From Rhodocyclales bacterium (lineage in GTDB: Bacteria > Pseudomonadota > Gammaproteobacteria > Burkholderiales > Rhodocyclaceae), in contig JACRLX010000050.1 in assembly GCA_016235165.1 (NCBI GenBank), positions 1-64,000 on the forward strand: a stretch of DNA of 64,000 nucleotides, written 5' to 3'. Under the pieces are notes generated by a model. That model had not been told where the DNA came from, did not search any database, and worked only from the letters and a program-made list of their open reading frames with translations. Below are positions 8,120-16,085 of this stretch, piece by piece (position 1 is the stretch's first letter; each line of letters starts with the position of its first letter). A program made the position numbers and the translations under genes.

Positions 8120-8125
8120 GATGAA

Positions 8126-8461
8126 ACCCGTGGCGGATCTTGGGCTGGTGCGGGATCAGGACGGCGGGGGGCTCTGCTCCGCTCCATGTCCTCCGTCGTC
8201 GGCCTGCGGCCGACTCCTCCCCCTTTACTTGCGCGGAGCAGAGCCCCCCACCGTCCCGGTCGGGATACGCCGTCGCGGGTTTTCGGTAGCAAGGCAAAAG
8301 CGTATCCCGCCAAGGATGGCGGGTAGCCGATTCCCGCAGGTACAGGAGGAGGGCCGGTGCTCTTTCGGCCCGGGGGACACGGAGGGAATCGGATACCCGT
8401 CGTCCTTGGCGCCCACCACGGCACGCCGTTTCATCCGTCGCGGGTGGATTGAGCAATCGAG
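8126..8461. repeat. Palindromic insertion element A between urtB and urtC
   Basis: A 336-base element bounded by direct repeats GATGAA (8120-8125 and 8461-8466), the right one containing the urtC start codon. Stem I pairs 8159-8182 with 8233-8256 (23 of 24 positions) and encloses a small hairpin (8198-8214). A central stem pairs GGGATACGC with GCGTATCCC. Stem II pairs 8310-8335 with 8384-8409 (about 23 of 26) around another small hairpin. The loops of stems I and II are reverse complements of one another in outline (GTACAGGAGGAGG against CTCCTCC), so the element is two inverted copies of one module. It shares architecture and much sequence with the element at 14076-14384. Open frames inside it are not convincing genes. 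No transposase is present. It resembles a BIME or MITE; its class is not known to me. Confidence 0.8.
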
Positions 8462-9583
8462 ATGAAGCGCACCCCCTTCATCGTCCGCTTCCTCGGCGCC
8501 ACGCCGAAACAGGGCTGGATAGCGATCGGCATCGCCGCGGCGATCACCATGATCCTGCTGCCGGCGCTGCACCTGCTGGTGCCGACGGGCAGCCCGTTCC
8601 ATGTCTCGGCCTATGTCATCACCCTGGTCGGCAAGATCATGTGCTACGCCATCGTGGCGGTGGCCATGGACCTGATCTGGGGCTACACCGGCATCCTTTC
8701 GCTCGGTCACGGCCTCTTCTTCGCCCTCGGCGGCTACGCCTTCGGCATGTACCTGATGCGCCAGATCGGCCGCGACGGTTCCTATCAGTCGGACCTGCCC
8801 GACTTCATGGTCTTCCTCGACTGGAAGGCGCTGCCCTGGTACTGGACCGGCTCGGATTCGATCCTCTGGGTGCTGTTCCTGGTGCTCACGGTGCCGGCCC
8901 TGGTGGCGCTGATCTTCGGCTTCTTCGCCTTCCGCTCACGGATCAAGGGCGTGTATTTTTCGATCATCACCCAGGCCATGGTCTTCGCCGCCATGCTGTT
9001 CTTCTTTCGCAACGAGACCGGCTTCGGCGGCAACAACGGCTTCACCGATTTCAAGCGCATCCTCGGCTACAGCATCACCGCGCCGGAAATGCGCGTCAGC
9101 CTGTTCGCGCTCACCGCAGCGATGCTGCTGGCGACCCTGGTGCTCGGCCGCTATCTCGTTACCTCCAAGCTCGGCCGCGTACTGGCGGCGATCCGCGACG
9201 CCGAATCACGCGTCATGTTCATCGGCTACAACCCGCTCTACTACAAGCTCTTCATCTGGACCCTGTCGGCGCTGCTGTGCGGCATCGCCGGAGCGCTCTA
9301 CGTGCCGCAGGTCGGCATCATCAATCCCGGCGAGATGTCGCCGGCGAATTCGATCGAAATGGCGATCTGGGTTGCGGTCGGCGGCCGCGGCACGCTGATC
9401 GGGCCGGTGGTCGGCGCCTTCGTGGTCAATCTGGCAAAGAGCTTCTTTACCGTGACCTTTCCCGAGTACTGGCTGTTCTTCCTCGGTGCCATCTTCGTCG
9501 GCGTCACGCTCTGGCTGCCCGACGGCGTGGTGGGCTTGTGGCGCAAGCTGCGTGAGAAGCGCGCAGTGGGAGCCGTAAAATGA
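8462..9583 (+). CDS. urtC: Urea ABC transporter permease UrtC
   Basis: The second inner-membrane permease of the urea importer, 373 residues. It has a LivM-type fold with about ten hydrophobic segments and UrtC hallmarks such as AMDLIWGYTGILSLGHG (residues about 70-86) and IWVAVGGRGTLIGPVVGA near the C-terminus. The ATG at 8462 lies inside the right direct repeat of the palindromic element. The upstream sequence (GATTGAGCAATCGAG) offers only a weak ribosome site, whereas the displaced left copy of ATGAA keeps GGAG upstream. It overlaps urtD by four bases. Confidence 0.94.
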   Translation: MKRTPFIVRFLGATPKQGWIAIGIAAAITMILLPALHLLVPTGSPFHVSAYVITLVGKIMCYAIVAVAMDLIWGYTGILSLGHGLFFALGGYAFGMYLMRQIGRDGSYQSDLPDFMVFLDWKALPWYWTGSDSILWVLFLVLTVPALVALIFGFFAFRSRIKGVYFSIITQAMVFAAMLFFFRNETGFGGNNGFTDFKRILGYSITAPEMRVSLFALTAAMLLATLVLGRYLVTSKLGRVLAAIRDAESRVMFIGYNPLYYKLFIWTLSALLCGIAGALYVPQVGIINPGEMSPANSIEMAIWVAVGGRGTLIGPVVGAFVVNLAKSFFTVTFPEYWLFFLGAIFVGVTLWLPDGVVGLWRKLREKRAVGAVK

Positions 9584-14074: not shown

Positions 14075-14075
14075 A

Positions 14076-14384
14076 ACCCGGCGCGGCTTTGCCGCTGGCG
14101 ATGGATCGGGAGGGCAGGGCATTCCCCTCCGCTCATGTCATCCGTCGGTGCCCTGCGGGCACCTCCTCCTTCTTTACTTCGCTGCGGGGAACGCCCCACC
14201 CTCCCGATCAGGTTAGGCTTTCGCGGGGTTTCGGTCCCACGGCAGAAGCGTGTCACGCAAAGGATGGCGGGTACCCGATTCCGGGAAGTAAAGGAGGAGG
14301 AGCGGGCGCAGCCCGCGACGGGGGACATGGACGGAATCGGGTACCCGTCGTCCTTTGCGCCCACCGCCCAATGGAGCAAGCAAA
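14076..14384. repeat. Palindromic insertion element B between ureB and ureC
   Basis: A 309-base element bounded by direct repeats AAATGAA (14069-14075 and 14383-14389), the right copy containing the ureC start. Stem I pairs 14104-14127 with 14186-14209 (21 of 24, the rest wobble-compatible) around a GGTGCCCTGCGGGCACC hairpin. Stem II pairs 14259-14283 with 14332-14356 (23 of 25) around a GCGGGCGCAGCCCGC hairpin. The stem I arms differ in sequence from those of the element at 8126-8461 yet still pair, while loops (AAGTAAAGGAGGAGG; GGGGGACATGG) and stem II arms are conserved. Its last bases (ATGGAGCAAGCAAA) supply a GGAG ribosome site for ureC. No protein-coding content is credible. Confidence 0.8.
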
Positions 14385-16085
14385 ATGAAGATCACCAGAC
14401 AAGCCTACGCCGAGATGTTCGGCCCCACGACCGGTGACCGCGTCAGACTCGCCGACACCGAACTCTGGATCGAAGTGGAAAAGGACTACACGATCCACGG
14501 CGAGGAAGTGAAGTTCGGCGGTGGCAAGGTGATTCGCGACGGCATGGGCCAGGGCCAGAAGTTGGCCAAGGACGTGGCCGATACGGTGATCACCAACGCG
14601 CTGATCGTGGATGCGGTGCAGGGTATCGTCAAGGCCGATGTCGGCCTCAAGGGCGGCATGATCCTGGCGATCGGCAAGGCCGGCAATCCGGACGTGCAGC
14701 CCGGCGTCACCATCGCCATCGGCGCCGGCACCGAGATCATTGCCGGCGAGGGCATGATCCTCACCGCCGGCGGCATCGATTCGCACATCCATTTCATCTG
14801 CCCGCAGCAGATCGAGGAGGCGCTGATGTCGGGCGTCACCACCATGATCGGCGGCGGCACCGGGCCGGCCACCGGCACCTTCGCGACGACCTGCACGCCG
14901 GGGCCGTGGCACATCCATTCCATGCTCGCCGCGGCCGACGCCTTCCCGATGAACCTCGGCTTCCTTGGCAAGGGCAATGCCTCGCTGCCGGGGCCGCTGG
15001 CCGAGCAGGTCGCCGCCGGCGCCATGGGCCTCAAGCTGCACGAGGACTGGGGTACCACGCCGGCGGCGATCGACAACTGCCTGACGGTGGCCGACGAAAT
15101 GGACGTGCAGGTGGCGATCCATACCGACACGCTCAACGAATCCGGCTTCGTCGAAGCCACCCTCGCCGCCTTCAAGGGCCGCAGCATCCATACCTTCCAT
15201 ACCGAAGGCGCCGGCGGCGGCCATGCGCCCGACATCATCAGGGCCGCCGGCCTGCCCAATGTACTGCCCTCGTCGACCAATCCGACCATGCCGTACACGG
15301 TGAATACCATCGACGAGCACCTCGACATGCTGATGGTCTGCCACCATCTCGACCCGGCGATCGCCGAGGACGTGGCCTTCGCCGAGTCGCGCATCCGGCG
15401 CGAGACCATCGCCGCCGAGGACATCCTGCACGACCTCGGCGCCTTCTCGATGATGTCGTCCGACTCGCAAGCCATGGGCCGCGTCGGCGAAGTGCTGATC
15501 CGCACCTGGCAGACCGCGCACAAGATGAAGCTGCAGCGCGGCGCGTTGAAGGAGGACACTGCGCGCAATGACAACCAGCGGGTGAAGCGCTACATCGCCA
15601 AGTACACCATCAACCCGGCGAGCACTCACGGCATAGCCCACATCGTCGGCTCCATCGAAGCGGGCAAGCTGGCCGACCTGGTGTTGTGGAAGCCGGCCTT
15701 CTTCGGCGTCAAGCCGAGCCTGATCCTCAAGGGCGGCATGATCGCCGCCGCGGCGATGGGCGACCCCAATGCCTCGATCCCGACGCCGCAGCCGGTGCAT
15801 TACCGGCCGATGTTCGGTAGCTTCGGTGGTGGCCTCAAGACCTCGCTCACTTTCGTCTCGCAGGCGGCGCTGAAGAACCCGGCGGTCGCCGCGCTGAATC
15901 TCGCCAAGCGTCTGGAGCCGGTGAAGAACTGCCGCCGTGTCACCAAGGCCGACATGGTCCACAACAGTGCGACGCCGCTGATCGAGGTCGACAGCGAAAC
16001 CTATGCCGTGCGCGCCGACGGCGAACTGCTGGTTTGCGAACCGGCGCAATCGCTGCCGATGACACAACGCTATTTCCTGTTCTGA
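14385..16085 (+). CDS. ureC: Urease alpha (catalytic) subunit UreC
   Basis: The catalytic subunit with the di-nickel site, 566 residues. It begins [20 protein letters not shown]. Ligands are visible in order: the HxH pair in [14 protein letters not shown], the Lys that becomes carbamylated in [12 protein letters not shown], His residues in [13 protein letters not shown] and [15 protein letters not shown], the flap CHHLDP, and the Asp ligand in [15 protein letters not shown]. All key residues are intact. The start codon lies within the right-hand direct repeat of the palindromic element, and GGAG eight bases upstream belongs to that element. Confidence 0.98.

Follow-up and report, generated by a model that had tools for sequence, protein, structure and literature searches.

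Relation to described palindromic repeats

Rickettsia palindromic elements (RPE) and other bacterial miniature inverted-repeat transposable elements (MITEs), namely, ERIC, YPAL/RU-2, the Correia 107-bp element, and RU-3, are short palindromic repeats with open frames that fuse to host genes, and YPAL elements have been termed "co-translated with upstream genes" (excerpts of PMC2229807 and PMC10969869). Here we describe a palindromic repeat that occurs twice in a 64,000-nucleotide stretch (the window) of contig JACRLX010000050.1 from the Rhodocyclales bacterium assembly GCA_016235165.1, once between urtB and urtC (element 1) and once between ureB and ureC (element 2). As in the excerpted accounts of RPE and the MITEs, a short palindromic repeat is combined with a stop-free frame. 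However, the frames in those excerpts are fused in-frame to host genes, whereas each element has a separate start-to-stop frame between two intact cistrons, with a peptide that is not conserved; RPE insert in-frame inside protein genes, and the copies described here instead have a stop on one side and a start on the other. We think it likely that the element is a nonautonomous palindromic repeat that persists as a translatable filler cistron in Sulfuritalea-like operons. In the open-access literature, we found no description of a filler cistron that runs from start to stop at operon junctions.

Other known systems share single traits with the element. HEARO RNA, of the IsrB-IscB systems, is a structured RNA of about the element's length that integrates next to ATGA or GTGA. 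The element differs in having no nuclease gene, and a HEARO/IsrB identity was rejected, with no Rfam match at the gathering threshold and, for element 1, none at E values up to 10. REP/BIME repeats, which go with RAYT transposases, are paired inverted hairpins between genes. The element likewise consists of paired inverted hairpins between genes, but a RAYT gene flanked by the repeat was not found, and none of 30 Y1 transposase loci had the hairpin motif or an element nearby. The ends of the element are compatible with the IS200/IS605 type, in which hairpins are subterminal and insertion occurs 3' of a short fixed word without duplication; the difference is that no Y1 gene bearing these ends was found among the 30 loci, which come from the 18 of 25 searched genomes with Y1 transposase genes. 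According to a review, the terminal repeats and the direct repeats of the Chunjie MITE of Geobacter uraniireducens are conserved, and a phosphate operon is disrupted by one of its copies; the excerpted description in that review does not mention a start-to-stop frame.

Two elements at tight operon junctions

The window corresponds to contig C48 of genome G000 (4.47 Mb). Element 1 (8121..8461, +) follows urtB (6614..8119, +; Pfam BPD_transp_2), whose stop TAG lies at 8117-8119, and precedes urtC (8462..9583, +). Element 2 (14071..14384, +) follows ureB (13763..14074, +), whose stop TGA at 14072-14074 lies within the left ATGA of the element, and precedes ureC (14385..16085, +). All four genes come from the open reading frame (ORF) list and have Pfam support. 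If the left ATG is included and the count ends at the base preceding the right ATG, the elements measure 341 and 314 bases, where a preliminary description of this DNA had given 336 and 309; for element 1, the joint can be placed only to within NATG. That description had reported two related, palindromic inserts in tight operon junctions, each exactly at a start codon and leaving the gene a usable start, and our analysis agrees. In a similarity search of the own genome, element 2 matches element 1 at 77% over query positions 2-298, and both fold better than shuffled sequences (100 shuffles per element; z of -7.0 for element 1 and -4.4 for element 2).

The main point, absent from the preliminary description, is a frame that opens at the left ATG and meets no stop until the start of the next gene. 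In element 1, this frame (8121..8465, +) has 114 codons, and its stop TGA overlaps the urtC ATG; in element 2 (14071..14388, +), it has 105 codons, and its stop TGA overlaps the ureC ATG.

An open frame without peptide constraint

We aligned 77 copies from the own genome and its relatives, after removal of 9 loci that repeat the same places. The left end was readable by profile in 62 copies, the other 15 being excluded, and a right-side filter left 59 of the 62. Between the left NTG and the end of hairpin C, the frame is stop-free in 56 of these 59 copies, with 3 in-frame stops in total versus about 107 in dinucleotide-preserving shuffles. The other frames of the same 59 copies contain 155 and 77 stops in the forward direction and 75, 78, and 84 in reverse. 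In 16 pairs of similar copies, picked among those whose frames pass a length filter, stop gains and losses number 0 in the element frame and 13 and 19 in the other two, while random placement of the 699 substitutions would make about 12.7 stops. A coupled-frame test was passed by 61 of 70 copies from the own genome and relatives.

The frame does not appear to be kept for its product. Mismatches are spread evenly over the codon positions (1589/1621/1602 in 27607 in-phase columns), with no third-position excess; these counts come from overlapping pairs among 57 copies and are not independent, and copies with premature stops drop out through the length filter of 290-440 nt. Hairpin A is read in three phases, by 38, 13, and 6 of 57 copies. 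The even substitutions and the three phases argue that readability is kept rather than a peptide. Neither window element encodes a peptide that matches Pfam at E 0.01. Two own-genome copies that are interrupted by a nested 70-base palindrome are still open, with 124 and 135 codons. This palindrome (GCGTAGGCAGGGTTTCGCGGAGC... on one strand) lies beside the apical hairpin at G000:C39:32772-32841 and C13:269953-270022; it also occurs at five other own-genome places, all without the element, and by eye in L074 and L035.

Ends of the element and the insertion site

Left ends (n = 62) read ATGAA in 53 copies, GTGAA in 5, GTGGA in 2, and ATGAG in 2. An upstream stop is found at the left end in 59 of the 62, at positions -11 to +1 (test: a stop ending a frame of >=60 codons, lying within a span of 14 nt upstream to 2 nt downstream of the left NTG), and a downstream start at the right end in 57 (test: a frame of >=70 codons starting within 20 nt of the element's own stop). 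More telling than these site tests is the spacing between the element's stop and the next start, which are +1 apart in 31 copies and overlap (-4) in 15. The orientation of the copies is fixed. The right end of element 1 (8451..8461, +) reads GAGCAATCGAG, the common form in other copies being GGAGCAACTGA-N. A Shine-Dalgarno 4-mer accompanies the right start in 34 of 53 copies versus 179 of 2637 control windows; in the window, an AGGA/GGAG/GAGG word before the right start is absent in element 1 and present in element 2.

Direct repeats bound both inserts as the preliminary description had it, GATGAA at 8120-8125 and 8461-8466 and AAATGAA at 14069-14075 and 14383-14389, but their reading as target duplications at ATGAA is not supported. 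The left end is ATGAA in the 53 copies whatever gene follows, and of 55 readable downstream starts, 15 are ATGAA and 40 are not. The repeats in the window thus arise because the element nearly always begins with ATGAA and because urtC and ureC happen to start with ATGAAG. The base preceding the two starts agrees in 23 of the 55 copies, with 16 expected from composition, so that at most the ATG itself is duplicated; either the ATG alone was duplicated or one ATG belongs to the element. The target-site duplication of a MITE was accordingly not found in these 55 copies, beyond the possible ATG. A candidate terminal inverted repeat, the 9-nt pair GGATGAAAC/GTTTCATCC at 8119-8127/8428-8436, has its right partner internal to the element. 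Of the site preference proposed earlier, the ATGAA part fails, as copies without ATGAA repeats at their edges exist, and the preference for stop/start junctions is not contradicted.

Paired hairpins with covarying stems

Both window elements form two large hairpins, A and C. In element 1, folding and covariation place hairpin A at 8154..8261 (+; arms 8154-8182 and 8233-8261) and hairpin C at 8308..8411 (+; arms 8308-8335 and 8384-8411), the latter with the loop GTACAGGAGGAGG at 8340-8352 (+); folding adds a middle hairpin at 8262..8308 (+; GGGATACGC / GCGTATCCC). In element 2, folding places hairpin A at 14104..14209 (+) and hairpin C at 14256..14359 (+), with the loop AAGTAAAGGAGGAGG at 14286-14300. 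Read on the opposite strand, hairpin A carries the loop words AAGTAAAGGNGGAG and CGGNGGACATG of hairpin C. The element therefore comprises a single module present twice in inverted orientation, whose stem encloses AAGTAAAGGNGGAG - small hairpin - CGGNGGACATG.

The arms of hairpin C pair with their own partner at 0.964 versus 0.617 across copies (56 copies), and those of hairpin A at 0.886 versus 0.509 (57 copies), the own-partner values being somewhat favored by the choice of the best small shift per copy. This difference indicates that the stems are maintained through paired changes. Such covariation fits RNA and single-stranded DNA alike.

Copy number and distribution

The own genome holds 9 copies of about 0.3 kb each, without a transposase gene, as is typical of a MITE. 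A match was found in 20 of 101 genomes, own included, a lower bound, as one genome scored empty (G002) holds a copy at another junction (L179). These 20 comprise 16 of the window's genus (own included), 3 of other genera in the same family, and 1 of the same order; G046 and G072 match only weakly, and the G046 locus L034 lacks the junction layout. Searching for the right end GGAGCAACTGA-N-ATG in 31 genus genomes and then in three genomes returned known and further copies with the same layout. Among these 35 loci, one place has no profile match (L354), and no transposon was noticed, although those loci were not annotated. Shortened copies keep the common right end and miss parts of the two-hairpin profile (L355, L379, and L387, and L384 by eye). 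Candidatus Nitricoxidireducens (G058) has 16 right ends.

In named genomes, the exact hairpin-module pattern occurs in at least 120 stretches. Among the matches listed, Burkholderiales predominate (Sphaerotilaceae and Comamonadaceae), with others in Sterolibacteriaceae (Sulfuritalea, Sulfurisoma, and Candidatus Nitricoxidireducens), Rhodocyclales, and Lysobacteraceae. Sulfuritalea records share junction sequences with genomes of the window's genus (L303/L023, L218/L075, and L252/L065), which makes that genus probably Sulfuritalea. Plasmid and phage records contained nothing similar to element 1 at E 1e-5. Among the matches listed, the sole viral contig with the hairpin motif has one motif match (L323:476-523, viral_contigs).

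The coupled frame was also tested in the named genomes, where 65 of 121 listed loci passed a score and length filter and were grouped by recorded taxonomy. Among these listed matches, Rhodocyclales plus Sterolibacteriaceae have the coupled frame in 11/14 on the + strand and 1/14 on the - strand, and Burkholderiales have it in 8/41 and 6/41, which we took as the background level. The rest are 8 Betaproteobacteria without an order or ungrouped (4/8 on + and 2/8 on -) and 2 Lysobacterales (0/2). Some named records are the same genomes as the relatives, so this test is not independent of the site test. Across all groups, 50 of the listed matches could be placed by a crude gene caller that may misplace neighbors: 17 have convergent neighbors, 31 codirectional ones, and 2 divergent ones.

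Empty sites and the history of the junctions

Relatives contain the same junctions without the element. The ureB-ureC junction is empty in six same-genus genomes (L091, L094, and L096-L099) and filled in 7 others lined up there, with more filled junctions in the copy alignment; urtB-urtC is empty in two genomes (L134 and L139) and filled in five, from 7 of 13 urtC loci lined up by pattern, six further loci not being lined up. Empty sites of the kind that the preliminary description suggested looking for thus exist, and the inserts are insertions or losses rather than fixed sequence. The same contrast among relatives is seen at the fadA-fadB, hypB-hypC, and aldo/keto reductase junctions (gene names beyond urt and ure were read from sequences, and wrong-strand fadB loci were excluded). 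By eye, the ureB frame has its stop inside ATGA in both empty and filled forms, so the left ATGA of the element preserves the overlap.

In a tree of 57 copies, those from the same junction are mostly not one clade, although the two ABC-transporter copies do group, and junction labels cluster on the tree (12 changes versus 24.1 when shuffled). By the approximately unbiased (AU) test, a single clade per junction was rejected for ureB-ureC (AU p 0.009) and urtB-urtC (AU p 0.022); for hypB-hypC, it was not rejected (p 0.165). The same junctions could have been hit more than once, or copies could overwrite one another; gene conversion between them could give the same picture.

A predicted filler cistron

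Untranslated structured mRNA lowers the expression of downstream genes, an effect known as polarity. In the window's genus and close kin, the ends of the element mimic an operon junction, with ATGAA on the left and GGAGCAACTGA-N on the right. With the element placed at a stop/start junction, the start of the next gene would be replaced by the element's left ATG (or GTG). Ribosomes ending the upstream gene would restart there, translate across the hairpins, terminate at the right end, on a stop located at the next ATG or overlapping it, and restart again, usually with a ribosome site. Such a filler cistron would preserve translational coupling and shield the mRNA from early termination. An internal stop would leave a long structured mRNA bare and reduce downstream expression, and this polarity would explain the purge of stops from the element frame. 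As a likely history, a gene-end repeat may have gained junction-like ends in one lineage and then settled in operons.

Several points weigh against this reading. Both site tests are permissive in GC-rich DNA: other ATGAA words of the same loci pass the upstream test in 65 of 208 cases and the downstream test in 82 of 181 (31% and 45%), and in most copies the TGA inside ATGA scores as a stop by construction. Because the copies are related, 59 copies are not 59 independent tests; the paired test is safer, but its 16 pairs were preselected for frame length, and the stem-pairing values are likewise favored. Premature stops occur in L026 and L085, and nine of the 70 copies failed the coupled-frame test. 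A Shine-Dalgarno 4-mer accompanies the left NTG in only 16 of 62 copies. In two Candidatus Nitricoxidireducens copies (L047 and L049), the right ATG opens only 8 and 3 codons, so that a few copies are not at gene starts. The search for a mobilizer, which covered the Y1/RAYT class, found none with the motif or element nearby among the 30 Y1 loci.

Alternative explanations

Of the alternatives, insertion by an IS200/IS605-like single-strand element fares best; we regard it as a real possibility, though short of probable, and it is compatible with the filler-cistron reading. Cutting after [N]ATG would leave the target NATG on the left and the NATG of the right end, without duplication, and insertions at start codons would be those that survive in operons. 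The hairpins near both ends, the lack of duplication beyond the ATG, and the fixed orientation fit this mechanism. In L047 and L049, from the young-looking Nitricoxidireducens set, the right end falls on an ATG outside any gene start, which an ATG target would predict; these two copies suggest that the element targets ATG. However, the Y1 loci lack the motif, and few such copies were seen, although inclusion among the 62 required a readable left end and no search for copies at nonstart ATGs was made.

It is also conceivable, if rather doubtful, that the element is a mobile cassette that inserts by specific recombination at stop-N-ATG junctions, the circle junction CTGA-N-ATG matching the target. 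Each insertion would then rebuild a stop/start on both sides and add a translated, peptide-indifferent cistron, and the nonmonophyletic occupation of ureB-ureC and urtB-urtC would reflect repeated hits at one site. The two copies at ATGs that start no gene weaken this explanation.

Less likely still is recruitment of the element into operons as a regulatory RNA, with hairpins that would react to passing ribosomes and so set the ratio of the two genes. The covarying stems, the conserved GGAGG-rich loops, and the occupation of the same junctions by unlike copies would suit such a role, but the host genes are very varied, relatives have the same junctions without the element, and, in other bacteria, cores are found between convergent genes as well.

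We give little credence to a family of real small-protein genes with a functional product: the start-to-stop frame is preserved in 56 of 59 copies, but a third-position excess is absent, neither window peptide matches Pfam at E 0.01, and with three phases over hairpin A, the copies encode different peptides. Slightly weaker again, and largely contradicted, is the MITE of the preliminary description, duplicating its target with a preference for ATGAA, which has in its favor the ATGAA repeats at both window copies and the existence of empty sites and against it the near-constant left ATGAA, the 40 of 55 right starts that differ, and the match of the base before the two starts in 23 of 55 copies with 16 expected.

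Other features of the window

Two further features lie near the ure genes. A 487-amino-acid ORF at 11959-13422 (+), P-loop ATPase-like by eye, lies between apparent ureD and ureA/ureB genes. Rfam RF02514 (5' ureB small RNA) matches 14532-14820 (-), antisense to ureC, at 113 bits, and the match recurs in L278; this may be mere urease gene conservation.

Implications

Inserts in operons are usually thought to be polar. This structured repeat seems to escape polarity by being readable from end to end without a constraint on its peptide, and it would offer a natural test of how strongly selection favors unbroken translation along bacterial mRNA. It may also be a source of operon-borne open frames of about 100 codons that selection has not shaped as proteins. 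If the choice of site is enzymatic, the element would represent an integration specificity for translational junctions.

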